NCBI GenBank assembly: GCA_025358305.1 | Contig: JANYJZ010000002.1 | Coordinates: 1-64,000 of the forward strand | DNA: 64,000 nt | Reading direction: 5' to 3' | DNA from: Ignavibacteriota bacterium | GTDB taxonomy: Bacteria > Bacteroidota > Ignavibacteria > UBA10030 > SZUA-254 | The notes under the pieces: model-generated | What the model saw: only the letters and a program-made list of their open reading frames with translations | Told to the model about the DNA's origin: nothing | Databases searched by the model: none | Translations under genes and position numbers: made by a program | Part shown: positions 21,739 through 38,682 of the stretch, one piece after another | Position numbering within the stretch: the first letter of the stretch is position 1 | Layout of the letters: each line of letters opens with the position of its first letter

Positions 21739-22874
21739 AGATCCTCATCGTCGGCACGGCGTTTCCCTTGAGAGGCGGGATCGCGCATTTCAACGGGCTC
21801 CTCGCCTCGCATCTCGCGAAGCGCCATATCGTGGAGACCATCACCTTCCGGCGTCAGTATCCTTCGTTCCTCTTCCCCGGCACGACGCAGTCGGAGACGG
21901 GGGGGACCCCGCCGGACGTCACGCCCGCGCCGGCGCTCATCGATTCGATCAATCCCTTCAACTGGATCGCCGTCGCCCGCGAGATCCGCAGGCGCGGGCC
22001 CGACCTCCTGATCTTCAAGTATTGGCTCCCGTTCTTCGGCCCCTGCTTCGGGACGATCGCGAAGTGTGCGAAGCGCGGGACGCGCACGAATGTGATCTTC
22101 ATCTGCGACAACATCGTCCCGCACGAACGCCGTCCCGGGGATATCCTCTTCACGAACTACGCGTTTCGGCAAGCCGACGCGTTCATCGTCCAGTCCGACG
22201 CGGTCGAGCGGGACCTGCTTGAGCGTTTTCCGGGACGGCGATATAAAAAAGTTCCCCATCCGGTCTACGAGAACTTCGGCGCGCGGATCGACAAGGATCG
22301 CGCCCGGGCGACCTTGGGTATTGCGGCAAAAAAAGTTTTGCTATATTTCGGGTATGTCCGCCCGTATAAGGGCGTGCTCGTGCTCCTTGAAGCGGTGAAG
22401 CGGCTGAAGGACGCCGGCGCCGCCGAGGATCTCGTCGTTCTCATCGTCGGGGAGTATTACGACGACGAGTCGAAGTACCGGGGCTGCGCCTCGGAGCTCG
22501 CACTGGGGGATTCGGTCCGGTTCGTCTCGGAATACGTTCCGAACGACCAGGTGGGGAGATATTTCAGCGCGGCGGACGCGGTAGTCCTGCCGTACCTGTC
22601 GGCGACGCAAAGCGGCATCGCCCAGATCGCCTACAATTTTGACACGCCGGTAATCGCAACCGAGGTCGGCGGACTCGCCGAGGTGGCCCGAGACGGCGTG
22701 ACAGGGTACGTCGTGCCGCCGAACGACCCCGGCGCACTGGCGAGCGCCATCCGGCGTTTCTATGACGAAGGGCGCGGTCCGGCATTTTCGGCGAACGTGG
22801 CCGAGGAGAAGAAAAAATACTCCTGGGACCGTCTCGTCTCAAGCATTGAAGAACTTTCGGGAATGAGCGCATGA
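21735..22874 (+). CDS. Family 4 (group 1) glycosyltransferase
   Basis: A 379-residue GT-B enzyme. It starts MKILIVGTAFPLRGGIAHFNG (glycine-rich N-terminal loop), and the C-terminal half has LLYFGYVRPYKGVLVLLEAV and VVLPYLSATQSGIAQIAYNFDTPVIATEVGGLAE, the nucleotide-sugar binding region of GT4. ATG 21735 overlaps the YfhO stop in ATGA and matches the fold start, while an earlier frame from 21654 reads through YfhO sequence. It is cytoplasmic and adds one sugar of the envelope glycan; which one is unknown. Confidence 0.9.
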   Translation: MKILIVGTAFPLRGGIAHFNGLLASHLAKRHIVETITFRRQYPSFLFPGTTQSETGGTPPDVTPAPALIDSINPFNWIAVAREIRRRGPDLLIFKYWLPFFGPCFGTIAKCAKRGTRTNVIFICDNIVPHERRPGDILFTNYAFRQADAFIVQSDAVERDLLERFPGRRYKKVPHPVYENFGARIDKDRARATLGIAAKKVLLYFGYVRPYKGVLVLLEAVKRLKDAGAAEDLVVLIVGEYYDDESKYRGCASELALGDSVRFVSEYVPNDQVGRYFSAADAVVLPYLSATQSGIAQIAYNFDTPVIATEVGGLAEVARDGVTGYVVPPNDPGALASAIRRFYDEGRGPAFSANVAEEKKKYSWDRLVSSIEELSGMSA

Positions 22875-23983
22875 GCAAGCATATCGCGGTCGTGTTTGGT
22901 ACGCGGCCCGAGACCATCAAGATGGCTCCGGTCGTGAAGGAGCTCGAGCGCCGCGGCGTCGGGCACTCGGTCATCGTCACGGCGCAGCACCGCGGAATGC
23001 TCGACCAAATGCTCGAGGTCTTTTCGATCACGCCTGCGCACGACCTCAACGTCATGCTCCACAACCAGGACCTCTTCCACGTGACGACCGCCGTCCTGAA
23101 CCAGATCAAGCCGATCCTGGCGGCCGAACGGCCCGGAGCGCTCCTTGTCCAGGGCGATACGACGACGACCTTTGCCGCGAGCCTTGCGGCGTTCTATCTC
23201 AAGATCCCCGTCGGCCACGTCGAGGCGGGACTTCGGACGTGGAACAAGTACGACCCGTTCCCCGAAGAGATCAACCGACAGCTCACGACGAGGCTCACCG
23301 ACCTGCACTTCACGCCGACCGACTGGGGAAAGCGGAATCTCCTCGCCGAAGGGGTGAACCCGGCGGCGATCTTCACCACCGGGAACACCGTGATCGATGC
23401 CCTCCTCATGACGGTCGATCCCGCGTACACGTTCGCCGATCCCACGCTGGGAAAGATCGATTTTCAGAACCGAAAGGTCATCCTCCTCACCTCGCACCGC
23501 CGGGAGAACTTCGGCGAGCCGATGAAGGAGATCTTCCGGGCCTGCCGCGAGCTCGTGGAGTCGCATCCGGACGTGGAGCTCGTCTATCCTGTCCACCCGA
23601 ACCCTAACGTGCAGGCGAGCGCCAAGGAGATCTTGGCCGGCGTCGCCCGCGTCCACCTCATCGAGCCGATGGACTACCGCCCGTTCGTTCAGCTCATGAA
23701 CAAGTGCACCCTCATTCTCACCGACTCTGGCGGCGTGCAGGAAGAGGCGCCGAGCCTCGGCAAGCCGGTGCTCGTCCTGCGGAACACGACCGAGCGGCCT
23801 GAGGCGATCGAGGCCGGAACCGGGATCCTCGTGGGGACCGACCGGGCGCGCATCGTGAAGGAAGCCACGAGGCTCCTCACCGACAATGCGGCGTATGCGG
23901 ACATGGCCAACCAGATCAACCCCTACGGCGACGGCAAGGCCTCCGGACGCATTGTGGACGTTCTCCTCAAGCATATCTCCTGA
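22871..23983 (+). CDS. wecB: UDP-N-acetylglucosamine 2-epimerase (non-hydrolysing)
   Basis: The 370-residue protein matches WecB/MnaA closely. It contains VFGTRPETIKMAPVVKEL at residues 8-25, the catalytic-site VEAGLRT and EEINRQLTTRLTDLHFTPT, HRREN, and the UDP-binding LTDSGGVQEEAPSLGKPVLVLR with NTTERPEAIEAGT. The enzyme interconverts UDP-GlcNAc and UDP-ManNAc, precursors of many surface polysaccharides. It overlaps the GT4 gene by four bases and the next GT2 by one base, so the products are likely used together. ManNAc, or a sugar derived from it, is therefore a probable component of the glycan made here. Confidence 0.95.
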   Translation: MSKHIAVVFGTRPETIKMAPVVKELERRGVGHSVIVTAQHRGMLDQMLEVFSITPAHDLNVMLHNQDLFHVTTAVLNQIKPILAAERPGALLVQGDTTTTFAASLAAFYLKIPVGHVEAGLRTWNKYDPFPEEINRQLTTRLTDLHFTPTDWGKRNLLAEGVNPAAIFTTGNTVIDALLMTVDPAYTFADPTLGKIDFQNRKVILLTSHRRENFGEPMKEIFRACRELVESHPDVELVYPVHPNPNVQASAKEILAGVARVHLIEPMDYRPFVQLMNKCTLILTDSGGVQEEAPSLGKPVLVLRNTTERPEAIEAGTGILVGTDRARIVKEATRLLTDNAAYADMANQINPYGDGKASGRIVDVLLKHIS

Positions 23984-24900
23984 TGGCGGCGGACTTCCCC
24001 TCGGTGTTCGCTGCGGTCCTTCACTACGGCGTAAAACCCGACGGGAGCGCCAGGGCGCTTCTCAAGGAAACGCTCGATTCCCTCTTGAAGATGACCTACC
24101 CGCATGTCACCCTTGCGGTTGTCGACAACGGCTCGACCGACGGCAGCCTCGAGATGGTGCGCGAAGAGTATCCGGGCGTGCTCCTTATCGCCAACGGCGC
24201 GAATCTCGGCGTCGGAGAGGGCTATAACGTGGGTCTGCGCGAAGGGCTCAAGCGCGGCGCCGACTGGGTGTTCCTCCTCAACAACGACATCTTCGCCGGC
24301 CCGGACATGCTCTCCGCGATGATTGAGGCGGGCATGAGCGACCCGAAGATCGGCATCCTGGGTCCCAAGACCTACTTCTCCGCGGAGCCCACGACATTCT
24401 GGTATGCCGGCGGAAGGGTGAACTTCTTTACGGGCGTCGTCTCCCACCGGGGAATCCGCGAGCTTGACCGGGGCCAGTACGACCCGACGGAGGACACCGG
24501 CTACGTCAACGGCTGCGCCATGCTCATCCGCCGCAGCGTCATCGACGCGATCGGGTTCATGGACCACGCGTTCCACCCCGCCTACGGCGAGGATGCGGAC
24601 TTTTCGCTCCGGGCGCTCCGTGCCGGCTTCCGTCTCGTGTACGTCGGGGAGGCGAAGCTCTGGCACCGCGTGTCGGCTTCCAGCGGCGGCGGCGCGACGC
24701 CGCTCAAGACCACGCTCAAGACGGAGCACAACTTTCTCCTTCTCCGCCGCTACGCGCGCTGGTATCACTGGCTTACCATCCCCTGGTGCGTCGGCGCGGT
24801 GGCGCTCGTCTTCATCCTCCGCGAGCTTCTTCAGGGGAACTTCCGCATCGTGGCTGCCCTGGGCAAAGGAATCGTTTCCATCTTCCGGAAGGCCTCCTGA
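23983..24900 (+). CDS. Family 2 glycosyltransferase (rhamnosyltransferase-like)
   Basis: A 305-residue GT2 enzyme: SVFAAVLHYG at the start, AVVDNGSTDGSLEMVREEYP, the metal-binding FLLNNDIFAGPD, and GYVNGCAMLIRRSVIDAIGFMDHAFHPAYGEDADFSLRALRAGF, the acceptor-site block of the WbbL/rhamnosyltransferase-type branch. A hydrophobic C-terminal stretch (about 265-285) may attach it to the membrane. Its start overlaps the stop of the epimerase gene by one base, and its own stop overlaps the flippase start by one base. Confidence 0.9.
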   Translation: MAADFPSVFAAVLHYGVKPDGSARALLKETLDSLLKMTYPHVTLAVVDNGSTDGSLEMVREEYPGVLLIANGANLGVGEGYNVGLREGLKRGADWVFLLNNDIFAGPDMLSAMIEAGMSDPKIGILGPKTYFSAEPTTFWYAGGRVNFFTGVVSHRGIRELDRGQYDPTEDTGYVNGCAMLIRRSVIDAIGFMDHAFHPAYGEDADFSLRALRAGFRLVYVGEAKLWHRVSASSGGGATPLKTTLKTEHNFLLLRRYARWYHWLTIPWCVGAVALVFILRELLQGNFRIVAALGKGIVSIFRKAS

Positions 24901-26225
24901 TGCAGTTCGGGCGGCACATCGGCAAGGGGCTTTGGGCGTTCGCCGATAAGGCGCTTCCGGCCTTCTACGGCATCGGGTTCATTCTCCTGGTCATTCGCGT
25001 TCTGCCGGAAGGGGAGTACGGCGCGTTCGTTGTCGTGCAGTCGCTCTATATGATCATCGCGGCGCTCGGCGGCGCGCTTGCCCTGCAGCCGCTGACAAAG
25101 TTCGGCGCGGAGACGAAGGAGAACGGGGCCTACATCGTCGCCGGACTCGGCATGATTACCGCATTCTTCGCCGCAGCATCGCTCCTGACGTTTGTTGGAG
25201 GCCCGCTCCTCCTCTCGTTGGTCAGCCCGCACGACGACGGAAAGGTGGCTTCGCTCCTGCGCTACATGCCGCTTCTTCTCTTCTCGGGACTCTACCGGAC
25301 GTTCGCGGTGAGCCTCCTCCAGACGACGTACGCCGTCGCTCGCATCTTCTGGATCGACGCCGTCTACTTCCTCGGGACGCTCGGCCTCATCGCCGGCATG
25401 GGGGCCCTCGGGCGGTTCACGAGCGCCTCGGACCTCGTCGTCCTCATTATTGCGGGACAAACCGCCTCGACGCTTCTCGCGCTCGTCCTCTCGCGCAGGG
25501 AGATGTCTGTCCGCTTGACGTTCAGCCGTCAGGCCCTGGCGGCGATGTGGCATTTTGGGAAATACACGTTCGGGGGAAGCTCCGTCTACTCGGTCTTCTC
25601 CCAGATGGATATTTTCTTCATCTCGTCGTTCGTCGGCGTCGCGGGCGTCGCGGTCTACAGCGCTTCCAAGATATTTACGAGGATCTTCGACATGCTCGCG
25701 CAGGTGGCCCAGATGTTCCTCATCCCGTTCTCGTCCAAGGCTTACAAGGAGGGAGCCATCGAGAAGATGCGGATCACCGCCGAAAAGGCCATCTGCTTCT
25801 CGACGCTGCTGCTCCTGCCGGTCTTCCTCGCGATGGTGTTTCTCCCCGGACCGATGATGCATCTGCTCTACAAGGGAAAGTACGACCACGGCGCCATCAT
25901 CGTGCAGATCTTCGGCTTTCTCGCCCTTGTGAACCCCTGGAACGTCGTCCTGTCGAACTACATTGTCGGCATCGGGAAGGCGCGCGAAACGTTTTACTAT
26001 GCGCTCCTCTTCCTGGCGCTCGCAGGCCTCTCGATGTATTTCCTGACGTCGTGGTTCGGCGTCGCCGGAGCGGCCTTGGGGTATGTCGGGTCGTTCGCCG
26101 CCATTTCGCTCCTCTTCTTCCTCTTCATCCAGCGCTTCTTCCGCCTGACGCTGGCAAGTGTCGCAGGCCGGGTCGCGGACTTCTGGATGTTTGTCCGCCA
26201 GTCTCTCGGACGTGTCCGCCCCTAG
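24900..26225 (+). CDS. Wzx-type polysaccharide flippase (MOP superfamily)
   Basis: A 441-residue protein with about 12 membrane segments. The N-terminus, LWAFADKALPAFYGIGFILLVIRVLPEGEYGAFVVVQSL, is typical of Wzx/RfbX flippases, which move lipid-linked oligosaccharide across the inner membrane. ATG 24900 overlaps the previous stop (TGATG) and places the first membrane helix at the normal position. Its presence implies a Wzx/Wzy-like assembly route for the glycan. It is the last gene before the transposon, which landed 79 bases beyond its stop. Confidence 0.88.
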   Translation: MQFGRHIGKGLWAFADKALPAFYGIGFILLVIRVLPEGEYGAFVVVQSLYMIIAALGGALALQPLTKFGAETKENGAYIVAGLGMITAFFAAASLLTFVGGPLLLSLVSPHDDGKVASLLRYMPLLLFSGLYRTFAVSLLQTTYAVARIFWIDAVYFLGTLGLIAGMGALGRFTSASDLVVLIIAGQTASTLLALVLSRREMSVRLTFSRQALAAMWHFGKYTFGGSSVYSVFSQMDIFFISSFVGVAGVAVYSASKIFTRIFDMLAQVAQMFLIPFSSKAYKEGAIEKMRITAEKAICFSTLLLLPVFLAMVFLPGPMMHLLYKGKYDHGAIIVQIFGFLALVNPWNVVLSNYIVGIGKARETFYYALLFLALAGLSMYFLTSWFGVAGAALGYVGSFAAISLLFFLFIQRFFRLTLASVAGRVADFWMFVRQSLGRVRP

Positions 26226-26296
26226 GGGGAGGATCACTGACCCGCGGTATCGGCCTCGTTCCTGAACGGCGTGCGCGCCGCGTGGATGCGGCCCCG

Positions 26297-26323
26297 GTCC
26301 GGCCGGTAGTGTCTCAGTTTGAA
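26297..26323 (+). repeat. Left target duplication and left terminal inverted repeat
   Basis: The 8-bp GTCCGGCC (26297-26304) is followed directly by the 19-bp end GGTAGTGTCTCAGTTTGAA (26305-26323). Both recur at the right end, the 19-mer in inverted orientation without any mismatch. Confidence 0.95.
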
Positions 26324-26355
26324 TTGGCTTTTTTCAGAGGAAGAATGTACCTTAT
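26324..26355 (+). promoter_or_regulatory. Predicted promoter just inside the left transposon end
   Basis: TTG at 26324-26326, immediately after the terminal repeat, 21 bases, then TACCTTAT at 26348-26355. It would drive the two-gene rightward cassette. Confidence 0.45.
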
Positions 26356-26387
26356 GCGTAAATACCAATCTACCTATATAAAATCGA

Positions 26388-26819
26388 TTGAAATCCCAAG
26401 TTACAGAGGAGTCCATAGATCATGTAATCCACCGCCTGAGGACATGGTTTGAGGAGAGTCCCGTTTGGATTAAGCAGGGGTCAATGTACACGATCGATTT
26501 GCCAATCAAGAATGAAGAGGGATTGGAGTTACGTTTTTGTGCAGCAGCACAAGACGCGGCGATATGGTTGCCAAGATTTACTTATCTGTTCAATAATAAC
26601 AGAATCAGGGGAATAGACTATCACGCATCATATATCAACCATGATGGCAATAGGGCTTCTGGTTGGCACGAACATTTGTGGAACGACAAATTGCAGATGG
26701 CTCCACGCTACCCAAATGATGGTTTTCAACATGTGCCAAGAGATAATCAAATTGATTATGTACTGAAGCGATGGACAATTGAGTACAAAGAACAACTTCG
26801 ATTGGACTTTCAGGAATGA
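26388..26819 (+). CDS. Transposon passenger protein of unknown function
   Basis: A 143-residue protein, probably soluble, that I do not recognise. It starts at TTG 26388 (LKSQVTEESIDHVIHRLRTW). No in-frame ATG exists before 26484, which would remove a well-formed first helix. The middle has alternating strands (MYTIDLPIKNEEGLELRFCA), and later there is a GWHEHLWND motif with two histidines and several aromatic residues. The C-terminus is a charged helix. Its stop overlaps the start of the next gene by four bases (ATGA), so the two proteins are probably made together. Such a coupled pair on a mobile element can be a toxin-antitoxin or defence pair, but nothing in the sequence proves it. Confidence 0.7.
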   Translation: MKSQVTEESIDHVIHRLRTWFEESPVWIKQGSMYTIDLPIKNEEGLELRFCAAAQDAAIWLPRFTYLFNNNRIRGIDYHASYINHDGNRASGWHEHLWNDKLQMAPRYPNDGFQHVPRDNQIDYVLKRWTIEYKEQLRLDFQE

Positions 26820-27559
26820 ACTGCGACAAACTACTTAAGAGTTATCTCGATGCATTTGCGCGACATTCTGAGATAATTCCCATGAAAGACGGATGCATAC
26901 TTATAACGCCATACCTACATTCTCATGGGGTGTACATTACAATTTATGCGAAGGCAGAGGGGGATCGTATTGTTTTGCATGATAATGGAGAAACGCTTCA
27001 ATCTCTCTTCATGCGCGGGGTAAGACTATTTGAAAATGAACACCGGGAGCAATTACTAAGAAGTATTTGCAAGGCATATAGTGTAGATTTGTCCGGTTGG
27101 GCGATTGAGAAGACAGTTACAACTGATTTGACTGGAGAGGGAATTATCGACCTAATTAATGCACTGAAGTCTGTAAATGACATGATCTATCTCCATCAAG
27201 CATCAACTTCGGACGTCTTCAAGTTCCAGGTTACGATGTTCTTCAAGGAACGGCAGTTAAATGTGACGCAAAACCACAAGGTAAATGGAAAGACTACTAC
27301 GCATAAAATTGACTTCTACTATCGACGTCGTCAAGTTGACCATTTTATTAAGGTAATGTCCGGCTCACAGTTGCAGATGAAAGTAATACGCGCGGGTTTT
27401 AGCTATTATGATATTAGGGAAACGAAGAAAGAATTTTCTTGGATTAACATTATTAATCCTGAAGATGAGTGGTCAAGCAGTTCCCTTGAAATATTGAATG
27501 GCTTCTCTAAGGTGATTAGTTGGGAGCATAAGGATAGTCTCGTTAAGTTACTAAATTGA
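26816..27559 (+). CDS. DUF1828/DUF1829-like protein
   Basis: The 247-residue protein has an N-terminal region resembling DUF1828 (KDGCILITPYLHSHGVYITIY, then DRIVLHDNGETLQSLFMRGV, about residues 23-70). The C-terminal half, with MFFKERQLNVTQNHKVNGK and KIDFYYRRRQVDHFIKVM, is compatible with DUF1829. These domains have no established activity and occur sporadically in accessory regions. There is no signal or membrane segment. It is translationally coupled to the upstream 143-residue protein and converges on the transposase, with 12 bases between the stop codons. AT-rich codon use sets it apart from the host genes. Confidence 0.75.
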   Translation: MNCDKLLKSYLDAFARHSEIIPMKDGCILITPYLHSHGVYITIYAKAEGDRIVLHDNGETLQSLFMRGVRLFENEHREQLLRSICKAYSVDLSGWAIEKTVTTDLTGEGIIDLINALKSVNDMIYLHQASTSDVFKFQVTMFFKERQLNVTQNHKVNGKTTTHKIDFYYRRRQVDHFIKVMSGSQLQMKVIRAGFSYYDIRETKKEFSWINIINPEDEWSSSSLEILNGFSKVISWEHKDSLVKLLN

Positions 27560-27571
27560 TTTTCATTGACA

Positions 27572-28411
27572 TTACTTGGCTGCATCCGTTAGTTTCACCA
27601 AATCCTCAACGCACCAAAGCCTCTTCGTGATCCCCGCCGCCTGAGCAGGTGTAACCCTCGTAGTCTTGTGAATCCGGCAGAAGTTGTAGTACATGAAGTG
27701 CAACGCGATTGCATATTCATGATTCTCAATCTTTTTCGAGAACGCATTGGTGAGGCGTGTGAACCGGCGCATACTCATACGCATGGTAAGATTCTGACGC
27801 TCCACGAAGCTCGTAGAAACGTGCTTCGGGTTAGGCTTACCAACAACAAGCTCTTTCCGCGTACCCGTACACTCCGCAGGACTATACCGCTTCTCCCCTC
27901 CGGGCGCTTCTCCGTAGATCTTAACTAACTGCGCGTAGTCGATGTTCGCGCCGAACGCTCCTTCAACGGCGGCGAGATATACCTTGAGTCCATCCGTCGT
28001 AAGCTGAATGCGATTGGTAAGACGCTTCGCAACATCCTGCATGAACATGGTTGCGTAGCTCGCGTCTCGTTCCCCAACGAGATATGAAATGATGAGTTTG
28101 GAATCCGCATCAATCGCCGTCCATGTCCAAGCGTCCCCAACATCCTTCCGGTGCTTCATATCTTCGGGAACATTCTTTTCCTTCGCATACACGAACGACC
28201 AAATTTCATCGCACTCAACCCGCTTCGTCTTGAGGTTGCGGACGTTCTCGTTGTGATACCACTGGCATTCGCGGCCTACCTCAACGAGCAGCTTTGTCAC
28301 GGTATTGATGGAAACATCCGCAATGCGGGAGGCGGAGCGGAGGCTATTTCCCTCAACAAGGAGGCTGATGATCTGGGTACGTTTTTCGAGCGAGAGGCGG
28401 TTCATTGTCAT
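27572..28411 (-). CDS. IS1-family transposase
   Basis: A 279-residue, single-frame DDE transposase. It has an N-terminal helix-turn-helix (EGNSLRSASRIADVSINTVT, about residues 20-39), then CDEIWSFVYAKEKN (D68), DADSKLIISYLVGERD (D101/D103), LTTDGLKVYL (D140), and FVERQNLTMRMSMRRFTRLT with E204. The last motif is typical of the single-ORF branch of IS1 (ISMhu11-like), in contrast to classical IS1, which needs a frameshift. The 8-bp target duplication agrees with IS1. No stop or frameshift interrupts it, so it may still be active. It has its own promoter behind a terminator that insulates it from the right-hand passenger genes. Confidence 0.93.
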   Translation of the reverse strand: MTMNRLSLEKRTQIISLLVEGNSLRSASRIADVSINTVTKLLVEVGRECQWYHNENVRNLKTKRVECDEIWSFVYAKEKNVPEDMKHRKDVGDAWTWTAIDADSKLIISYLVGERDASYATMFMQDVAKRLTNRIQLTTDGLKVYLAAVEGAFGANIDYAQLVKIYGEAPGGEKRYSPAECTGTRKELVVGKPNPKHVSTSFVERQNLTMRMSMRRFTRLTNAFSKKIENHEYAIALHFMYYNFCRIHKTTRVTPAQAAGITKRLWCVEDLVKLTDAAK

Positions 28412-28432
28412 GCTTTCGATTATTGATCTATA

Positions 28433-28463
28433 CCAATATACGACATTAATCTTGACTTGTCAA
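28433..28463 (-). promoter_or_regulatory. Predicted transposase promoter
   Basis: On the minus strand, TTGACA starts at 28463; 20 bases after TTG comes TATATTGG (28440-28433), 22 bases before the transposase ATG. It is one of the best matches to the shared promoter layout in the window. Confidence 0.65.
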
Positions 28464-28501
28464 GTATATAGTTCAGTTTAAAGAAATACGTGATTTGAGA
28501 C

Positions 28502-28538
28502 AAAAAAGAACCCGCACCGGCCTAAACCGATGCGGGTT
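28502..28538 (-). terminator. Rho-independent terminator (leftward) inside the transposon
   Basis: AACCCGCACCGG (28509-28520) faces CCGATGCGGGTT (28527-28538). The single C/A mismatch becomes a G-U pair only when the minus strand is transcribed, and the run of six T also lies on that strand, so it acts leftward, ending a transcript that comes from 28790 or beyond. Confidence 0.85.
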
Positions 28539-28793
28539 TGGGTAATCAATCGCCCTGGGACTATAACCGTAGCGGAATAGGGGTTCTCCGATTGCTCGGA
28601 AAAGTTACCCTACGAGACGGTTTTGTCCTGTTCCATTTGAGATGCTGCTTGGACATAGGAACTCCGTGATTTGTGACTGAAAGCTCTTGCGCGAGTCACG
28701 GAGATTCCTTACCTTACGTCTGCATGATCTACCGTGACCACGCGGAAGCGTGGTTTAGTGCCCGATGTGAACGCATCGGGCACTTTCATTATA
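28503..28793 (-). ncRNA. Candidate structured non-coding RNA in the transposon
   Basis: Between the 264-residue passenger gene and the transposase promoter lie about 290 bases without an ORF but with dense base pairing. Stems: 28758-28767 with 28774-28783 (10 bp), 28737-28743 with 28748-28754 (7 bp), 28662-28669 with 28696-28703 (8 bp), 28565-28570 with 28617-28622 enclosing 28578-28582 with 28608-28612 and 28587-28591 with 28596-28600. The last is closed by GCAA, a GNRA loop, on the minus strand. GGGTAA (28540-28545) can also pair with TTACCC (28605-28610), suggesting a pseudoknot or a switch. TATAAT is read on the minus strand at 28793-28788 and the terminator at 28538-28502 closes it. Orientation is probable, not certain. 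I recognise no known RNA family. Confidence 0.5.
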
Positions 28794-28825
28794 ACGCCAT
28801 TTAATATGTTTTACATGTACGTTTA

Positions 28826-28861
28826 TATGATCGCTTACATGAATTTCTCCTTGCGATCATA
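28826..28861 (-). repeat. 9-bp inverted repeat around the stop of the 264-residue gene
   Basis: TATGATCGC (28826-28834) is mirrored exactly by GCGATCATA (28853-28861) with an 18-base centre that contains the stop codon. It may be a hairpin at the 3' end of the passenger transcript. Confidence 0.5.
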
Positions 28862-29629
28862 AATTCCACGAATCTGGCCCGCAGTTAGCCTCTCTCCGAA
28901 AAGCGCCTCCGATTTCTGCTCCAACGTCTTGAAAACATCCACCGTTGATTGCTTGCCCGTACCGTAAAGTTCATGGTAAGCCGTCACAATTAGCGGGGTA
29001 AGTTCGTTTAATCGTTCCCGCGTTCTACGAGTCCTACTTTTGGTGGTCGTTATGGGATGGCTCGCGGTAGTCTTACTTTCTTGAATCGATCCGGCCCCGC
29101 CTTGGATGAGATTGATGGGAAGGATCAAACGAAACGCTTTATGACGCTCAATTAGCTGGGAGTATGCTCCGCCTCTCCGCTGAACAACTGCGGTCTTGCG
29201 CTCTATCGATTCAATTCTTTCGCGCTTTTCGCGATTCTCCTCCTCCGTCAACTCATCGTCTGTTTTCGTAATGGGTAATCTATTCACAATTTGCCCGGTT
29301 GTTTGGTCTCTCCACTCTTTATACCGAACCCAGGGTCCATTCTGGGAGATAGCACGTTTTTCATGATTCATATCTAATAGCATATTATCGTATACTTCTA
29401 TGAACCATTCTGGAGTTCGTACACGACTATCTTCTTCGAGCCGACAATCGAGAAGAAGAAGCTTATTCGACTCGAATATATTGGTAACTCCATCAGATAT
29501 CAAGATTTCAAATAATTCCAACTCTGTCATACGCGATAAAAAAAATGCTTCTCGTGCGTTGGAATGGGTTCCCCCATCCTCGCCGTCAAAGCGGCGAACG
29601 AGAAGCATTAAAAATGTTGATTGGCGCAT
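28835..29629 (-). CDS. Transposon passenger protein of unknown function (264 aa)
   Basis: I recognise no family. The protein is soluble and mostly helical, with a very charged middle (DDELTEEENREKRERIESIE, then RKTAVVQRRGGAYSQLIERH), a basic linker (TTTKSRTRRTRERLNE) and a C-terminal helical block (ELYGTGKQSTVDVFKTLEQK, GERLTAGQIRGIYDRKEKF) that has the look of a small DNA- or RNA-binding helical domain. It begins 40 bases after the 78-residue gene and is probably co-transcribed with it. The start at 29629 could be later, for example the methionine at MTELELFEIL. Codon use is AT-rich like the rest of the element. Confidence 0.65.
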   Translation of the reverse strand: MRQSTFLMLLVRRFDGEDGGTHSNAREAFFLSRMTELELFEILISDGVTNIFESNKLLLLDCRLEEDSRVRTPEWFIEVYDNMLLDMNHEKRAISQNGPWVRYKEWRDQTTGQIVNRLPITKTDDELTEEENREKRERIESIERKTAVVQRRGGAYSQLIERHKAFRLILPINLIQGGAGSIQESKTTASHPITTTKSRTRRTRERLNELTPLIVTAYHELYGTGKQSTVDVFKTLEQKSEALFGERLTAGQIRGIYDRKEKFM

Positions 29630-29669
29630 CCAACGCGGCGAGCCAATTCACAGATATGTCGGGGTAAAA

Positions 29670-29906
29670 CTACTTCTTTTTAGCCCATCGGGTTTGAGCG
29701 GCTTTCTTGGCGATCTGTGAGCGTTTCTTAGGGCTGAGCGCGTCGGCCCTTGCCCTGCCTCCTTTGAGGCCGCCTAATCGTCCAAGAGCAACGGCGGCGG
29801 GGTTGCGTGTATCGGGAGGTAAGTTCTCCTCCTTCTGATGCGTGGCGAGATCGGTAACGAGCTTCGCCAGGGTATTGGGGTCGCGGGGTCTTTTGGGTTT
29901 CTTCAT
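29670..29906 (-). CDS. Small basic protein with SPxxR-x3-A-x3-A-x4-W-type motif
   Basis: A 78-residue, strongly basic protein. The second half, ALGRLGGLKGGRARADALSP then KKRSQIAKKAAQTRWAKKK, matches a short family found widely in bacteria, often beside mobile-element genes, whose function is not established. A nucleic-acid-binding role is suggested by the Lys/Arg content and the glycine-rich LGGLKGG stretch. It is the first gene of the right-hand passenger pair. The predicted -7 element ends only three bases before the ATG, so the transcript may be leaderless. Confidence 0.7.
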   Translation of the reverse strand: MKKPKRPRDPNTLAKLVTDLATHQKEENLPPDTRNPAAVALGRLGGLKGGRARADALSPKKRSQIAKKAAQTRWAKKK

Positions 29907-29909
29907 ACC

Positions 29910-29940
29910 ATAATATAACCAATCCTGCCTATCCGGTCAA
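29910..29940 (-). promoter_or_regulatory. Predicted promoter of the right-hand passenger genes
   Basis: On the minus strand, TTG at 29940-29938, exactly 20 bases, then TATATTAT at 29917-29910. The start codon is at 29906, so the start site would fall at or near the A of the ATG. Confidence 0.55.
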
Positions 29941-29961
29941 GCATAAATCGGGAGCGAGGAT

Positions 29962-29988
29962 TTCAAACTGAGACACTACCGTCCGGCC
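29962..29988 (-). repeat. Right terminal inverted repeat and right target duplication
   Basis: TTCAAACTGAGACACTACC (29962-29980) is the exact reverse complement of the left end, and GTCCGGCC (29981-29988) repeats the 8 bases found before the left end. Confidence 0.95.
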
Positions 29989-30065
29989 AGTCTATTAGGA
30001 ATTCAGCGGATTATTCAGTAAAATTATCCCCGACACATGGCACACTCGCACGAAAACGACGTCGT

Positions 30066-30800
30066 ATGCTCCGTGATTTAATCCGGACGATGGGCCTAAA
30101 GGCGCCCGAGGTGGCTCCCACGAAGGATTTTTCGGACGAGCAGCGCGCGCTTTACGACCGATTGAAGCCGTTCACGATGACGAGCCTCGAGCGCGTCGCT
30201 TCCCTGGTCTCCGCCGTGGAATATCTCACCGCCAATACGCTCGACGGACCGATACTCGAATGCGGCGTGTGGCGCGGCGGCAGCATGATGGCCGTCGCAC
30301 TGACCCTTCTTCGGCTCGGCGACACCTCTCGCGAGCTCTATCTCCTCGATACGTACGAAGGCATGACGCAGCCGACGGCGAAAGATACCGACGTCGACGG
30401 ACGGGCGGCGAGCGAGATACTCCGCTCCGCGGAAAAGACCGCGATCGGCTCCGCCTGGTGCTTCGCCTCCCTGGACGACGTCCGACAGAATCTTGCCTCG
30501 ACGGGCTACCCGATGGAGAAGGTCCATTTCGTGCAGGGCCGCGTCGAGGAGACCATTCCCGGGACGCTTCCGGAGAGCCTCGCGCTCCTTCGTCTCGACA
30601 CGGACTGGTACGAATCGACCCTCCACGAGCTCAATCACCTCTACCCGCGGCTCATGAGGAACGGCATCCTCATCATCGACGACTACGGGCATTGGGACGG
30701 GGCGAAGCGCGCGGTCCACGAGTACTTCGCTCGGCAGCCGTTCTCGCCGCTCCTCCAGCGGATCGACTACACCGGTAGACTCGTGGTGAAGACCGCGTGA
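30066..30800 (+). CDS. TylF/MycF-type O-methyltransferase family protein
   Basis: A 244-residue protein of the TylF (macrocin O-methyltransferase) family. It has GPILECGVWRGGSMMAVAL as the SAM-binding first loop (about residues 59-77), ELYLLDTYEGMTQPTAKD, and the metal-site-like LALLRLDTDWYESTLHELNHLYPRL with ILIIDDYGHWDGAKRAV. The family methylates sugar hydroxyls in natural products, and in polysaccharide clusters it probably methylates glycan residues. It is the first gene to the right of the transposon and its stop overlaps the next start (GTGA). No good promoter is visible between the transposon and the gene, so expression may have been disturbed by the insertion. Confidence 0.88.
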   Translation: MLRDLIRTMGLKAPEVAPTKDFSDEQRALYDRLKPFTMTSLERVASLVSAVEYLTANTLDGPILECGVWRGGSMMAVALTLLRLGDTSRELYLLDTYEGMTQPTAKDTDVDGRAASEILRSAEKTAIGSAWCFASLDDVRQNLASTGYPMEKVHFVQGRVEETIPGTLPESLALLRLDTDWYESTLHELNHLYPRLMRNGILIIDDYGHWDGAKRAVHEYFARQPFSPLLQRIDYTGRLVVKTA

Positions 30801-31525
30801 CGTCGGCAGTGATGTCCGCTGCCGACGACATCGCAGCCGCCCGCCTCCGCCGTCCTGCAACCTCGCTCGCGAACTGGGACTACCTCGTCATGCGGCCCCT
30901 CATCGACTGGATGCGCGACGTCGCCGTCCAGTACGTCCAGGGGGCTGTTCTGGACTACGGATGCGGGAACAAGCCGTACCAGTCGTTCTTCGAAGGGCGG
31001 TTCACCTCGTATGTCGGAGCGGATGTCGCACAGAACACCATCGGCACCGTGGAGATCGTGCTCGGCGCGTCGACCACGCTTCCGGTCGCCGACCGGTCGT
31101 TCTCGACGGTCCTCTCCACCCAGGTTTTCGAGCACGTTCCCAATCCCGACGTCTATCTTGCCGAAGCGTCGCGTGTTCTCGCCGCGGGGGGTCATCTCAT
31201 CCTGACGTGCCCCGGTGCGTGGATGCTGCACGAAGAGCCGCATGACTACTGGCGGTATACGCGGTACGGACTGGCGCACATCCTGCAGAAGCACGGCTTT
31301 GACGCCGTCCGGATCGACGCGGGCGGGGGAGCCTGGCGGCTGATCGGCCAGACGTTCCTCAATCATTTGGCGTTCGGACGGAAATATTCCATTCCTCTGG
31401 TCTCGAAGGCTGCATTTTGGATCTGGGTCGTCGCCGTGAACGTGCTCTTCTCCTTCCTCGACAGGATCAACACGAACACGAAGGACACAGTCAACTACAT
31501 GGTTATTGCACGAAAGCGCGATTGA
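30797..31525 (+). CDS. Class I SAM-dependent methyltransferase
   Basis: A 242-residue protein with a Methyltransf_11-type core: VQGAVLDYGCGNKPYQSFF (SAM motif I), TLPVADRSFSTVLSTQVFEHVPNPDVYLAEASRVLAAGGHLILTCPG. A C-terminal hydrophobic stretch (FWIWVVAVNVLFSFLD) may touch the membrane. GTG 30797 overlaps the previous stop in GTGA; ATG 30812 in the same frame is an alternative. It overlaps the following methyltransferase by one base. The substrate is probably a glycan or its lipid carrier, by context only. Confidence 0.85.
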   Translation: MTSAVMSAADDIAAARLRRPATSLANWDYLVMRPLIDWMRDVAVQYVQGAVLDYGCGNKPYQSFFEGRFTSYVGADVAQNTIGTVEIVLGASTTLPVADRSFSTVLSTQVFEHVPNPDVYLAEASRVLAAGGHLILTCPGAWMLHEEPHDYWRYTRYGLAHILQKHGFDAVRIDAGGGAWRLIGQTFLNHLAFGRKYSIPLVSKAAFWIWVVAVNVLFSFLDRINTNTKDTVNYMVIARKRD

Positions 31526-32355
31526 TGGCGGAGCATTCACCAAAGTTGGCGATCGTTGACAAGCACGCGACCATCGAGTCGGGGCGCCTTCCTGAGATGC
31601 ACGGTTCGACGATCGTGGAGCAGATCCACATCGAACGCTACCGCTATGCCCTGTCGTCGATCGGGGGCGGGGCCGTGCTTGACATCGCGTCCGGCATCGG
31701 GTACGGGACCAATATGCTGGCGCAGGATGCCCGCGTGAAGAGCGTGACGGGCGTCGACGTGTCGAAGGAGGCGATCGCAAAGGCGCGCTCGGCGTTCGCG
31801 GCCCCCAACCTGCGCTTCGAGCTCGTGGACGGCAACTCCCTCCCGTTCGCCGACGAATCGTTTGATGCAATCGTCAGCTTCGAGACGATCGAGCACACGG
31901 CCGACCCGCACGCGTTCCTCGCGGAGCTGCGCCGGGTGCTCCGGACCGGCGGCGCGCTCGTCATCTCGACGCCGAACAAGCGCTTCCATTCCCACCGCAA
32001 GCGCGCTCCCTGGAATCCGTTCCACACCGTTGAGTATTATCCCGAGGAGTTCCGCGGCGTCCTCCGCAGCGTCTTTCCGAACATCACGTTCTGGGGAGGG
32101 CAGGAGTTCCTCGAAACGGGGAGAAGGGACGTCCTGCGGTACAACTGGGTGGAGTTCCGGTACTACAATCTCGACCACCATCCGCTCCTCTCGAAGATCG
32201 TCACGCCGCTCAAGCAGCTGAAGCGCTCCGTCGCCGGGTCGGCGAAGGATGCCGGCGCTCCTCCCGATCCCGCGCTCCTACGGTTCCGGACGGCCGTCGT
32301 GCCGGCGGTGGAGGGGAGGGAAGCCTTCACGATGGTCGCCCGCTGCACAAAATAG
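31525..32355 (+). CDS. Class I SAM-dependent methyltransferase
   Basis: A 276-residue methyltransferase. It contains GGGAVLDIASGIGYGTNMLAQ as motif I (about residues 47-67), LPFADESFDAIVSFETIEHTADPHAFLAELRRVLRTGGALVISTPN, and a C-terminal extension. ATG 31525 overlaps the previous TGA by one base; an earlier frame from 31417 only reads through the previous gene. It belongs to the same coupled run as its two neighbours, so three methyltransferases are probably made together, suggesting a heavily methylated surface glycan. Confidence 0.86.
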   Translation: MAEHSPKLAIVDKHATIESGRLPEMHGSTIVEQIHIERYRYALSSIGGGAVLDIASGIGYGTNMLAQDARVKSVTGVDVSKEAIAKARSAFAAPNLRFELVDGNSLPFADESFDAIVSFETIEHTADPHAFLAELRRVLRTGGALVISTPNKRFHSHRKRAPWNPFHTVEYYPEEFRGVLRSVFPNITFWGGQEFLETGRRDVLRYNWVEFRYYNLDHHPLLSKIVTPLKQLKRSVAGSAKDAGAPPDPALLRFRTAVVPAVEGREAFTMVARCTK

Positions 32356-32372
32356 CGAAGCCCGAAGCGTCC

Positions 32373-33500
32373 GTGGTCCCCGCAAAAACCAGCCTCCTCA
32401 TCACGACGGACAACCTCGACCACGGCGGAGTGGAGGAAGTCATCTTCAATTATGCGAAGCTCCTCGACAAGGAGGCTTTCGATGTGACTGTCGCCTGTCT
32501 CCGGCCGGGGACGATCTCAGCGAAGATCGCCGCGGTCCCGGGAGTGCGGCTCGTCCACATTGCGACGAAGAGCCGCATCCTGCGGCTCGTCCGGTTCGCC
32601 GCGCTCGCCCGCGCGGTGAAGGCGGATATCGTTCACAATCATGCATGTTGGTACGGTCATCTCGCGGGCACGCTTTCCGGCGCGAAGAACGTCGAGACCA
32701 TCCACAACATGTTCTCCTGGTTCACCTGGTTTGAACGCTGGCACTACGGGCTCTACAGCCTCTTGGCGCAGACGATGATCGCAGTTTCCGACCATGTTCG
32801 GCGCTACACGCTCGACCACATTCCCCTCATGAACCCGTCGAAGCTCGTCGTGGTACGCAACGGCATCCCCGTCGAACGCTTTCGTGACGTCAAAGCGGAC
32901 GAGGAGCTCCGGCGCCGCCACGGCATCGCTTCCGGCGCGCCCGTCATCGGGTTCGTCGGCCGGCTCACGTTCCAGAAAGGGGTCGAACATCTCATTGACG
33001 CGGCCGCCCTCCTCGCGGCGACGCATCCGGAGGCGAGGATCCTCATTGTCGGAGAAGGGGATCTCTGGGATGACCTGCAGACGCGTGCCGCGGACCGGCC
33101 ACAGGTCATCTTTGCCGGATACCAGCAGGAGATTCCGCGGTATCTTGCCATGTTCGACGTCTTTATCCTTCCGTCGCAATTCGAAGGACTGCCGATGAGC
33201 GTCCTCGAGGCGATGGCGGCCGGCAAGCCGGTCGTTGCGACCGCCGTCGGAGGGACGCCCGAGGTCGTCGTCGACGGGGTGACGGGCTTTCTCGTGGAGC
33301 CGAAACGAGCGGACCAGCTTGCAGAGCGACTTTCGCGCCTCATCGGCGATCCGGAGCTGCGCCTGCGGATGGGAGCGGCCGGACGTGCGCGCGTCATGTC
33401 CCATTTTTCCGCAGAGGGGATGGTCCGGGCGACGGAAGCAATCTACGCTGATCTCGTCGCAGGTCGGCGACGGCGGGCCGGGCAGCGGACCCCCGGATAA
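32373..33500 (+). CDS. Family 4 (group 1) glycosyltransferase
   Basis: A 375-residue GT-B enzyme: LLITTDNLDHGGVEEVIFNYAKLL at the start, VRNGIPVERF in the middle, GFVGRLTFQKGVEHLIDAAALL, and FEGLPMSVLEAMAAGKPVVATAVGGTPEVV, the E-x7-E nucleotide-sugar site. It starts at GTG 32373, 17 bases after the preceding gene. It likely adds one sugar of the glycan in the cytoplasm. It is followed by a terminator, so a transcription unit appears to end here. Confidence 0.92.
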   Translation: MVPAKTSLLITTDNLDHGGVEEVIFNYAKLLDKEAFDVTVACLRPGTISAKIAAVPGVRLVHIATKSRILRLVRFAALARAVKADIVHNHACWYGHLAGTLSGAKNVETIHNMFSWFTWFERWHYGLYSLLAQTMIAVSDHVRRYTLDHIPLMNPSKLVVVRNGIPVERFRDVKADEELRRRHGIASGAPVIGFVGRLTFQKGVEHLIDAAALLAATHPEARILIVGEGDLWDDLQTRAADRPQVIFAGYQQEIPRYLAMFDVFILPSQFEGLPMSVLEAMAAGKPVVATAVGGTPEVVVDGVTGFLVEPKRADQLAERLSRLIGDPELRLRMGAAGRARVMSHFSAEGMVRATEAIYADLVAGRRRRAGQRTPG

Positions 33501-33547
33501 GTCTCCGATGGCGCTTGCGGTCGGCCGTGCGAATGGACCCCGATCTG

Positions 33548-33581
33548 CGGACGGCATCTCGTGCCGCCCGTTTTCTTTTTT
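33548..33581 (+). terminator. Rho-independent terminator after the GT4 gene
   Basis: CGGACGGCA (33548-33556) pairs with TGCCGCCCG (33562-33570), one mismatch, 5-base loop, followed by TTTTCTTTTTT. Confidence 0.75.
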
Positions 33582-33649
33582 CCTCAAAAAATTGGATATT
33601 GTTCCCGTTCACGGCAGCGGGCCGTGCGAATGATCATTCTCTGGAACCC

Positions 33650-34456
33650 ATGAGCGTACAGCGGACCCCCTATAAGATGTATCATCCGGCCGAGCAGGTG
33701 ACGGCGCTGGACACCCACGGCCAGTCGTGGCGCGGCGAGGCCGTGCAGGAAAATATCGATCTCTGTCAGTATCAGCTGATCGAACCGGTGTTCCGAACGT
33801 ATCTCCCGAAGACGGGAAGGATCCTCGAATCGGGAAGCGGGATCGGGCGGTGGGTCTTCTACCTCCTGAAGCTCGGGTACGACATCATCGGGATCGATAT
33901 CGCGGAGGATGTCTTCCGCATCGTGAGGGAATACGATCCGAACGCGCCGATCTATGCCGAAGATATTCTCCATTCGTCGTACGCCGACCGATCGTTCGCG
34001 GCGGTCATCTCGCTCGGGGTTCTCGAGCATTTTGAGGAAGGCCCCCAGGCCGGGCTGCGCGAGGCGCACAGGCTCCTGAGCGACGATGGGCTCTTCTTCG
34101 TCTCCGTGCCGCTGCAGAATGCGAGCAGGCTCACGCTCGCCAACCGCCTCAAGGCGCTCAAGCGCCGGCTCCGGGAAGCGAAGGGAGCCGCGTACGTATT
34201 TGAAGAGTACCGGTATACCCGGGCGGAGTTCGAGGCGCTCCTTTCCGAATCGCGGTTCGACATCATCGCGGTCACCCCCGATGACTTCACGCCGCCGAAA
34301 AACATCGGACTCTATGTCGACTATCCCTTCCTGCGGCACGCAACCCGAAAGTGGGAGCTCAACATTTTTGGACGGGCGCTCTTTGCGCTCCTGAACGCCG
34401 TATCACCCTGGATCTGCACCGGCGGCATTCTCTGGGTCTGCCGGAAGAAGCCCTAG
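33650..34456 (+). CDS. Class I SAM-dependent methyltransferase
   Basis: A 268-residue methyltransferase with GRILESGSGIGRWVFYLLKLG as motif I, IGIDIAED as motif II, and SFAAVISLGVLEHFEEGPQAGLREAHRLLSDDGLFFVSVP. A C-terminal hydrophobic region (FGRALFALLNAVSPWICTGGIL) could contact the membrane. ATG 33650 fits the fold start; the longer frame from 33515 runs through the terminator and is unlikely. It begins a new unit with the GT87-like gene 12 bases downstream. The methyl acceptor is unknown. Confidence 0.85.
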   Translation: MSVQRTPYKMYHPAEQVTALDTHGQSWRGEAVQENIDLCQYQLIEPVFRTYLPKTGRILESGSGIGRWVFYLLKLGYDIIGIDIAEDVFRIVREYDPNAPIYAEDILHSSYADRSFAAVISLGVLEHFEEGPQAGLREAHRLLSDDGLFFVSVPLQNASRLTLANRLKALKRRLREAKGAAYVFEEYRYTRAEFEALLSESRFDIIAVTPDDFTPPKNIGLYVDYPFLRHATRKWELNIFGRALFALLNAVSPWICTGGILWVCRKKP

Positions 34457-34468
34457 CGGTTAGGCCCG

Positions 34469-35539
34469 ATGACGCCGACGCTCCGGGCAATACCGAGGTT
34501 GAATCTCTGGGTCTGCGCCTGTTTCCTGGCGGGACTCCTGGTCTTCCTGCCCCATTCGCTCCGCCGCCAGGAGGCGCTGGGGATCGATTACCCCATTTTT
34601 TACGCCGCGGCAAACCACGCGGGTGCCGCTGACGGCTACATCTACCCGCCCTTTCTCGCCTGGATCCTCTATCCGCTAGGCCAGCTTCCCGTCGGAGTCT
34701 CTTCGCTCGTCTGGTATCTCCTCACGGCGGCGATCTTCGTTGCAGCGCTTTGGGACTGCTTGCCGCCGGCGCTGTCCCTCGATGAACGGGCCACTTCAGC
34801 CATCCTTGCCGTTTCGCTCGTTGCGACGGCGTGGCTTGCCCTCCTCAACGCAGAACTTGGACAGGTGAACGGAGTGGTCTTGTGCCTGATCCTTGTCTCC
34901 GCCGGGAGCGCTGGGCGATCTTCGCTCGGCGCGTTCTCGATCGGTCTTGCCTCGGCCCTGAAGATCTCGCCGGTTCTCGTCCTGCCGTACCTGCTCATGC
35001 GCGAGGGCCGCCGATGGATGCGGGCGCTTTTTGTCTGTCTTGGAACGGCCGCCGCCGCGCTGGCGCTGCCGTTCGTGTTCGGCTACAGCTTCGCGGGCAT
35101 CGCAAACCTTAAGACGGTGTCGGAGAACGCGACCGCAAATCTCGGCTTCCACGACTACCTTGGAGCCTTCTCCACGCCCTTCTCCGCGGTCCTTCTGCTG
35201 GCATCGCTCGTTGTTGCGTACCGCGCGAGGAAGAGGGGAGAGATCTGGTATCTTCCCGTTCTTCTCATGATGGTGCTGCCGCCGTTCGTCCGAAAGGCGC
35301 ATCTGATCTACGGGATGCCGCTCATGCTGCTTCTCCGGAGACCCGTCGGGAGGCAGTCATGGATCCCCCTCCTCTGGGCGCTCGGGGCGCTCGGCACCAT
35401 GGCGTGGGGCCCGAGCGCCGTCATTGGGAATACCTCCGGACTCGGCCTCCTTCTCTGGGACCTCTTCCGATCGCCGGAAGAAGAAACCCCCGGCGCGCCA
35501 GCATCGTCCGTCCCCGCAGGAAACGCCGCAGCGATTTGA
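34469..35539 (+). CDS. GT87-like (DUF2029) polytopic glycosyltransferase
   Basis: A 356-residue membrane protein with about nine hydrophobic segments. Early in the protein are GIDYPIFYAAANHAGAADGY and IYPPFLAWILYPLGQLP, the acidic and YPP motifs of the GT87/DUF2029 family, which includes mycobacterial polyprenyl-phosphate-mannose-dependent mannosyltransferases. It likely transfers a sugar from a polyprenyl carrier on the periplasmic side. The C-terminus is hydrophilic (PEEETPGAPASSVPAGNAA). The next promoter overlaps its last codons. Confidence 0.83.
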   Translation: MTPTLRAIPRLNLWVCACFLAGLLVFLPHSLRRQEALGIDYPIFYAAANHAGAADGYIYPPFLAWILYPLGQLPVGVSSLVWYLLTAAIFVAALWDCLPPALSLDERATSAILAVSLVATAWLALLNAELGQVNGVVLCLILVSAGSAGRSSLGAFSIGLASALKISPVLVLPYLLMREGRRWMRALFVCLGTAAAALALPFVFGYSFAGIANLKTVSENATANLGFHDYLGAFSTPFSAVLLLASLVVAYRARKRGEIWYLPVLLMMVLPPFVRKAHLIYGMPLMLLLRRPVGRQSWIPLLWALGALGTMAWGPSAVIGNTSGLGLLLWDLFRSPEEETPGAPASSVPAGNAAAI

Positions 35540-35566
35540 CACTGGGAGGAAGTATTCCTACCTTAG
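35536..35566 (+). promoter_or_regulatory. Predicted promoter of the beta-propeller protein gene
   Basis: TTG (within TTTGACA) at 35536-35538, exactly 20 bases, then TACCTTAG at 35559-35566. It starts inside the stop region of the GT87-like gene. Confidence 0.6.
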
Positions 35567-35598
35567 CACACGCATTCAACCTCTCCGCCATTTTATTG

Positions 35599-37332: not shown

Positions 37333-37345
37333 CCGAATTGCGCTT

Positions 37346-37376
37346 CGGCCGCAGGGGGGCAGAGCTCCTGCGGCCG
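37346..37376 (+). terminator. Strong hairpin after the beta-propeller gene, possible terminator
   Basis: CGGCCGCAGG (37346-37355) pairs perfectly with CCTGCGGCCG (37367-37376), starting 13 bases after the stop. No T run follows directly, so termination may need Rho. A -7-like TACCTTGG at 37453-37460, without a good TTG partner, may start the next unit. Confidence 0.45.
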
Positions 37377-37521
37377 GAGCGGCTGCAGTGCGAGCCGAAC
37401 CTTCCCCCGGGCCGTCTCCGAGGCGGGGAGCAACATTTTCGATTTTTTTTCTTACCTTGGTGCTCGCGGGCGCACGAACCCGTGGACATGATGCCACTAT
37501 GGACGAGACAGAGCACCGGCA

Positions 37522-38682
37522 ATGGTTGTTTTTGTGTCAGATATTCAGTTTGAAGGGCTCCACCAGCGCCCGCAGCACCTCGCGGAGGCGCTCTCGGCCG
37601 CATCTCCTGTGCTGTGGCTCGAACCAGCCACGCTCTCCCACCGTGCCTCGTTCCGCGTACGACCGATCTCGAAAAACCTCTTCGCGTTGAGCATCCCCGT
37701 CATCCCCTACAATGCCAGGAACGCCGTCATCCGGCGCCTGGCGCGGGCGGCGGGCGGCGTTCCGGGGGTTGGAACTCTCCTAACGGCGGTGCAGCTGCGG
37801 CTTGTGCAACGGGCGCTCAAAGCGCTTGGGAGCTCCGCGCGGCCGACGGTCGCCGTCGTCCACAACTTTCATGCGATCGGTCTCGTCCGGCGGCTCTCGC
37901 CGCAGGTCGTTGTCTACGATTACATTGATAATGCATTCGGATTCACGGCGCTTCCGTCCCGCGTCCGGGACTTGTGGGTCGAAACGATCGACGCAGCCGG
38001 CGTCATCACGGTGACGTCGCCGGGCCTCGGCGCCCAGATTCGCGAAGCGGGCGGGAAGAATGCCGTCTATATCGGCAACGGCGTGGAAGTCGAACGCTTC
38101 GCGGCCAGCGGGGCCGCCCGGCCGGCCGATCTTCCGGAGGGCAAGCCTGTCGTTGTCTACGTCGGTGCGGTCTATCCATGGCTCGACTATGCGCTTCTTT
38201 CCAAGGCGGCGAAGCGCCTCACCGACGTGAACTTCGTCCTCATCGGACCGGTCCATCCGGACGCCGCGGCGGCCGTCGAGGATCTCAAACGGCGCGGAAA
38301 CGTCGTCGCCCTCGGGGTCAAGCCGTATCAAGCGCTGCCGGCGTATCTGCACTATTCGGACATCGGCATCATTCCGTTCCAGAAGAACGAGCTCACCAGG
38401 ACGGTGAACCCGGTGAAGCTTTATGAATACAGCGCCGCAGGGCTCCCCACGATCGCGACCGACTTCTCCGACGACGTGCGGGCGTTCCGCGGCCTCGTCA
38501 CGCTCGTCGCTTCCGAGGATGAGTTTGCGGCCGCGGTCCGCACCCTTCTTGCGCGTCGGGGTGATCAGGCAGGGAAGGAGCGCCTTGTTGCGTTCGCCCG
38601 GGAGCATGACTGGCGGCAGATCACGAAGGAGTTTATCGACATCATCAATCGGCAGCAGACTACTTCACACGCTTCAATATAA
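37522..38682 (+). CDS. Group 1 family glycosyltransferase (TuaH-like)
   Basis: A 386-residue GT-B-type protein. It begins MVVFVSDIQFEGLHQRPQHL, the 'HQRPQHLA' opening of a branch that includes TuaH-like transferases, has VVYDYIDNAFGFTALPSRVR, then IGNGVEVERF, and ends with IGIIPFQKNELTRTVNPVKLYEYSAAGLPTIATDFSD, the nucleotide-sugar region. It is cytoplasmic and presumably adds a glycan sugar. It lies nine bases before the second YfhO gene on the same strand, so the two are probably co-transcribed, echoing the YfhO-GT4 pair at 19447-22874. Confidence 0.87.
   Translation: MVVFVSDIQFEGLHQRPQHLAEALSAASPVLWLEPATLSHRASFRVRPISKNLFALSIPVIPYNARNAVIRRLARAAGGVPGVGTLLTAVQLRLVQRALKALGSSARPTVAVVHNFHAIGLVRRLSPQVVVYDYIDNAFGFTALPSRVRDLWVETIDAAGVITVTSPGLGAQIREAGGKNAVYIGNGVEVERFAASGAARPADLPEGKPVVVYVGAVYPWLDYALLSKAAKRLTDVNFVLIGPVHPDAAAAVEDLKRRGNVVALGVKPYQALPAYLHYSDIGIIPFQKNELTRTVNPVKLYEYSAAGLPTIATDFSDDVRAFRGLVTLVASEDEFAAAVRTLLARRGDQAGKERLVAFAREHDWRQITKEFIDIINRQQTTSHASI

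Follow-up and report, generated by a model that had tools for sequence, protein, structure and literature searches.

The stretch at positions 28502-28793 of the analysed window (the whole 64,000 nucleotides taken from an Ignavibacteriota bacterium, assembly GCA_025358305.1, contig JANYJZ010000002.1) is most likely the message of a small protein and not a new guide-like RNA. It lies within a complete IS1-like transposon and probably represents a transposon mini-gene, in which a short minus-strand mRNA would code for a 31-residue, strongly basic peptide. Three features of the sequence carry this reading: an open reading frame (ORF) whose residues are conserved at the equivalent place in a second copy of the element, a terminator that lies upstream of a separate predicted transposase promoter, and predicted pairing of the start region. 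The peptide would most likely regulate the element or its cargo; a toxin is less likely.

The transposon and its second copy

The transposon occupies positions 26305-29980 (3,676 bp) and contains the whole stretch. Its features are as follows.

26297..26304, no strand: left target-site duplication GTCCGGCC, with the same 8 bp at 29981-29988
26305..26323, plus: left terminal inverted repeat GGTAGTGTCTCAGTTTGAA, 19 bp, with an identical 19-mer at the other end
26388..26819, plus: cargo gene, 143 aa, partner of the DUF1828 gene; the pair is kept together in loci L013/L168
26816..27559, plus: cargo gene with DUF1828, matching the PADLOC candidate defence model PDC-M24B
27572..28411, minus: IS1-like DDE transposase, 279 aa, above the PF03400 cutoff and below that of NF033558
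28835..29530, minus: 231-aa gene (start inferred) upstream of the stretch, no homologue found
29544..29609, minus: terminator-like hairpin, 15 bp, then a T-run, between the 78-aa and 231-aa genes
29670..29906, minus: 78-aa gene; 107 related loci also have it upstream of the transposase
29962..29980, minus: right terminal inverted repeat, perfect 19-bp partner of the left repeat
29981..29988, no strand: right target-site duplication GTCCGGCC, same 8 bp as the left

The element has an IS1-type DDE transposase between terminal inverted repeats and is flanked by a short target duplication, as in the IS1 family, where duplications are 8-10 bp long. Its transposase matches PF03400 (E 6.5e-8, 33.4 bits, cutoff 24.1) and scores below the cutoff of 100 for NF033558 (E 6.3e-17, 62 bits). 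Neither a TnpB/IscB-type nuclease nor a reverse transcriptase was found in the element, in agreement with an earlier reading made from the sequence only. Searches of viral contigs, phylum genomes, plasmids, phages and the PDB gave no relative of the 231-aa protein. Around the insertion site (window 19447-38682), the transposon sits within an apparent polysaccharide gene cluster with a glycosyltransferase-like gene and a UDP-GlcNAc 2-epimerase, in a genome that has a T9SS sorting domain protein.

One further complete element with the same terminal repeats occurs in the same genome (copy 2; G000:C34:132712-136553, loci L022/L171). Its transposase is 83% identical to that of the window element and its 78-aa gene 77% identical, but its cargo is different: a SecB-like chaperone matching PD-T4-9_C plus a protein with a weak PARP-type match, with PD-T4-9_A also weakly matched, so that PD-T4-9/CmdTAC-like genes stand where the window copy has DUF1828/PDC-M24B. 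In the 107 loci fetched through a transposase search, the 78-aa gene precedes the transposase, and a variable pocket separates the two. Pocket genes belong to several families and occur in both orientations; one of them (L022:459-1037), together with about 18 related pocket genes, forms a family of ~130-200-aa proteins with an apparent N-terminal coiled coil and a winged helix, and the L022 protein has no Pfam match.

Folding of the stretch

In minus-strand order, the stretch and its downstream flank contain the following parts.

28788..28793, minus: TATAAT, candidate -10 box for which no good -35 was seen
28757..28784, minus: first hairpin, 11-12 bp, presumed 5' end (from folding)
28737..28754, minus: second hairpin, 7 bp (from folding)
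28657..28709, minus: leader stem AGGAATCTCCGTGA / TCACGGAGTTCCT, extending as far as the last base ahead of the ATG, with GGAG (28665-28662) buried in it
28561..28656, minus: 31-codon ORF MSKQHLKWNRTKPSRRVTFPSNRRTPIPLRL, conserved in copy 2
28503..28538, minus: intrinsic terminator, 13-pair stem then a T-run, strong
28435..28463, minus: predicted transposase promoter TTGACA-17-TATATT, 3' of the terminator, surrounding sequence conserved in copy 2

Strong folding of positions 28502-28793 is confirmed, and the stems noted in the sequence-only reading are all present. Predicted folding energy is -115.8 kcal/mol (z -7.5) for the minus strand and -126.5 kcal/mol (z -8.3) for the plus strand, and none of 200 shuffles was as good. 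When the whole window was cut into 218 consecutive 292-nt tiles, the stretch ranked first on the minus strand with z ~-6.2 against -3.9 for the runner-up; over the tile ranking and the shuffle tests, z is ~-6 to -8. Most of the excess comes from the hairpins at 28757-28784 and 28737-28754 plus the terminator. The middle 196 nt (28541-28736), which exclude these three, reach z -3.2, the leader stem alone -2.1 and the ORF part alone -1.7.

Individual elements of the earlier structural reading fare differently. The terminator (28538-28509 followed by CTTTTTT) is present, with a plus-strand C-A mismatch that becomes G-U on the minus strand, and so is the minus-strand TATAAT at 28793-28788. The helix formed by AACCGT (28565-28570) and ACGGTT (28617-28622), thought to close a nested region, also exists, but it sits within an ORF that had been overlooked. 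A proposed GNRA-type loop is found as GGAA (28744-28747) on the plus strand only; on the minus strand, along which promoter and terminator point, the loop is UUCC. The suggested pseudoknot has its complementary hexamers, GGGTAA (28540-28545) and TTACCC (28605-28610), but a six-base match may be due to chance. A covariance-model search, which the same reading had advised, found no Rfam family above its gathering score in the window (best sub-threshold match ctRNA_pGA1, 26.5 bits against 45). What survives of the structured-RNA proposal is a likely short minus-strand transcript ending near 28503, but one that carries a residue-conserved ORF and reads as mRNA.

A conserved reading frame

Copy 2 has a 31-codon ORF (MSRHHKWKRDKPQKKRVYLLPKWIVRIPLRL, L022:1190-1285) that corresponds to the window ORF (MSKQHLKWNRTKPSRRVTFPSNRRTPIPLRL) of the same genome. 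Both lie on the transposase strand in the same slot between the pocket gene and the transposase, just upstream of the latter; in copy 2 the ORF lies about 150 nt after the coiled-coil/winged-helix gene. The two peptides share 15 identical residues as well as start and stop (E 3e-5), and similarity starts at the Met and stops at the stop codon. With the stop counted, 11 of the 14 identical degenerate codons differ synonymously, and identity by codon position is 17/20/9 of 31, which reads as a coding pattern. Across all reading frames of both regions, the best ORF pair scores 52; in 400 double shuffles no pair exceeded 49. The reading frame is conserved with synonymous substitutions, and this support comes from two sequences only, both from one genome.

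A fold common to both regions was considered and rejected: the consensus of the two sequences reaches only -16.9 kcal/mol, against about -115 to -122 for each region, which is weak and not meaningful. Since residues are kept while codons change synonymously and no common fold emerges, the copies appear to keep the peptide and not the structure. Outside the ORF, the clearest nucleotide similarity between the regions lies around the transposase promoter. Both peptides have 9 to 11 K/R and 0 to 1 acidic residues in 31; the window peptide has 9 K/R, 0 D/E and 4 P and is without a hydrophobic stretch. This positive charge suggests binding to nucleic acid (RNA or DNA) or to the ribosome.

Possible operation of the proposed mini-gene

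The mini-gene RNA would be made from the TATAAT at 28793 or by read-on from the 231-aa gene; as no good -35 accompanies the TATAAT, it could equally be the tail of a transcript that starts at that gene. The 5' hairpins may protect the RNA, and the terminator may also keep its transcript out of the transposase gene. Translation of the 31-codon ORF is itself deduced from sequence. In the window copy, the leader stem is predicted to pair the short GGAG and most of the AUG, and would hold translation low until something opens the stem. The GGAG has an unpaired probability of 0.001 there and is equally buried in only 1% of shuffled leaders, whereas the ribosome site in copy 2 is 0.27 unpaired, which is nothing unusual (54% of shuffles at or below). 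Leader repression is therefore plausible for the window copy and not common to both. Clear Shine-Dalgarno sites occur in 0 to 1 of 12 sampled host genes; with such sites hardly used, burial of the GGAG may matter little.

Alternative explanations

That the stretch is a structured non-coding RNA of the transposon, acting as a regulator or guide, with an accidental ORF, would fit its place as the best-folding of 218 tiles and the promoter-like and terminator signals on one strand. We consider this unlikely: the ORF is conserved with synonymous changes in copy 2, the two copies have no fold in common, Rfam gives no match and the energy excess lies mostly in three plain hairpins. Those same hairpins could instead be read as insulation only, with end-of-cargo hairpins and the terminator shielding the transposase while the rest is spacer and the ORF similarity a relic; close relatives with divergent cargo genes are without such a stretch, which is consistent with that view. 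A relic, however, would not keep its residues while 11 of 14 codons change synonymously, and insulation as the sole function is quite improbable.

Two further explanations accept the ORF and assign it another task. In a type I toxin-antitoxin system, the peptide would be a toxin made from a silent folded mRNA and restrained by a plus-strand antisense antitoxin ending at the hairpin 28757-28784. The locus is similar to aapA1 (PMC8309996) in the length of its peptide and in a stable folded mRNA whose start is buried, a terminator-like hairpin exists for the opposite strand, and these transposons carry defence or TA-type cargo. Yet most type I toxins are small and hydrophobic with a transmembrane helix (PMC8309996), whereas the window peptide contains 9 K/R and 4 P and lacks any hydrophobic stretch; a search for a plus-strand promoter found none, and copy 2 does not share the start-site burial. 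Such a system is improbable here, and a membrane-type toxin is not supported, with the defining transmembrane stretch missing. Alternatively, the ORF could be the leader peptide of an attenuator, its translation deciding whether the terminator forms and hence whether transcription reads through into the transposase. Both copies have the order small ORF, terminator, transposase; related elements (L202, L210, L009, L165) carry in this slot a tiny ORF with a ribosome site and a GC hairpin, and in some of them the stop codon lies within a few bases of the GC hairpin. Against this, the terminator begins ~22 nt past the ORF stop in the window and ~55 nt past it in copy 2, no alternative anti-terminator is apparent, and few co-oriented transposases (3 of 44) are preceded by a terminator. 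A promoter of the transposase itself is predicted 3' of the terminator, so an attenuator is possible but unneeded, and we regard it as a doubtful explanation compared with a mini-gene for a basic peptide.

Distribution of the stretch and the peptide

As a whole, the stretch matches only itself in nucleotide searches of its own genome; in 395 phylum genomes it gives 30-32 nt chance matches, several of them within unrelated genes, and plasmids and phages yield nothing meaningful. The peptide has no match in Pfam, NCBIfam, the PDB or viral contigs, and among 391 class genomes it has weak matches only, of which eight of the best were inspected and look chance-like. Closer relatives of the element (transposase 57-76% identical) have other sequence in the slot, where enough upstream sequence is present. 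So far a single genome has yielded the peptide, whose putative gene had not been annotated.

The same slot in related elements

Other tiny ORFs, each accompanied by a strong ribosome site and by a GC-rich hairpin, also occur before the transposase in related elements. One type reads MSKVLKLIT, MSKILKTIP or MSNVLKLLISPHLNG; further types are MAWYRQSLLSVSV / MAWYRQSSSSVDV and MRSTWGEVVDFFAGFTTCARAII / MKIYWGRLINPFEGFINCARDIS. These ORFs are a lead only. Across 143 elements, the combination of ribosome site and small ORF ahead of the transposase is not significantly enriched (31, against 17-32 in shuffles); after coiled-coil/winged-helix genes there is moderate enrichment (5/20 against 8/200, counted at six or more matching bases). 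It is conceivable, though rather unlikely, that IS1-like cargo elements keep this slot for tiny translated peptides with folded mRNA, of 7 to 38 aa and several unrelated types, that control cargo or transposase alongside the neighbouring regulator gene. If true, a family of transposons would repeatedly use such slot peptides as a control device. The terminator as a general transposase insulator is not supported (3/44 co-oriented against 0/46 divergent, in a scan that allowed loops up to 8 nt and so missed the terminator of copy 2).

In a sister branch (L009:1273-1500, L165:4790-5010, L013, L202 and L210), the stretch between tiny ORF and transposase is similar in all five elements. Apparent structures there are one hairpin, a nested stem of GGGCTT..AAGCCC that includes a GTGCNNTAACAC-like hairpin, and a long stem surrounding an AATATAA segment; paired changes are visible by eye. 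Rfam gives no match to this stretch in L009, L165, L168, L202 and L210. It is a better covariation target than 28502-28793. Elsewhere, two elements of one genome (L010 and L023/L167) have this slot filled by a 65-aa helix-turn-helix protein resembling excisionases, ~325-341 nt upstream of the transposase.

Significance

An unannotated stretch of a mobile element that folds strongly can turn out to be an overlooked gene for a small protein and not a new non-coding RNA. The element group is widespread and carries defence or toxin-antitoxin-like cargo, which makes a conserved peptide beside the transposase a testable candidate for control of cargo or transposition.

Comparison with known systems

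The Helicobacter pylori aapA1/IsoA1 system, in which aapA1 codes for a 30-aa toxin, is alike in its ~30-aa peptide, folded mRNA and a ribosome site that is paired in the window copy (PMC8309996). The window peptide differs in having no transmembrane segment and being far more basic, and its locus in that no antisense promoter was found and no sequence similarity is shown. Copy 2 (L022) resembles the CmdTAC / PD-T4-9 defence system in carrying genes that match PD-T4-9_C (SecB-like) and, weakly, PD-T4-9_A; the window copy differs in its PDC-M24B-type cargo, and the peptide lies outside that system. Leader-peptide attenuators such as the tna and erm leaders place a short ORF and then an intrinsic terminator ahead of a gene. 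The window stretch has the same arrangement but differs in that its downstream gene has a predicted promoter of its own, no alternative anti-terminator is apparent and the stop codon is not close to the terminator. From the IS1 family, the element differs in a transposase below the cutoff of NCBI's IS1 equivalog model, and in its 78-aa gene, its variable pocket and the cargo that lies beyond the transposase; with the passenger-gene versions of that family it shares the PF03400 DDE transposase, the terminal repeats and the 8-bp target duplication.
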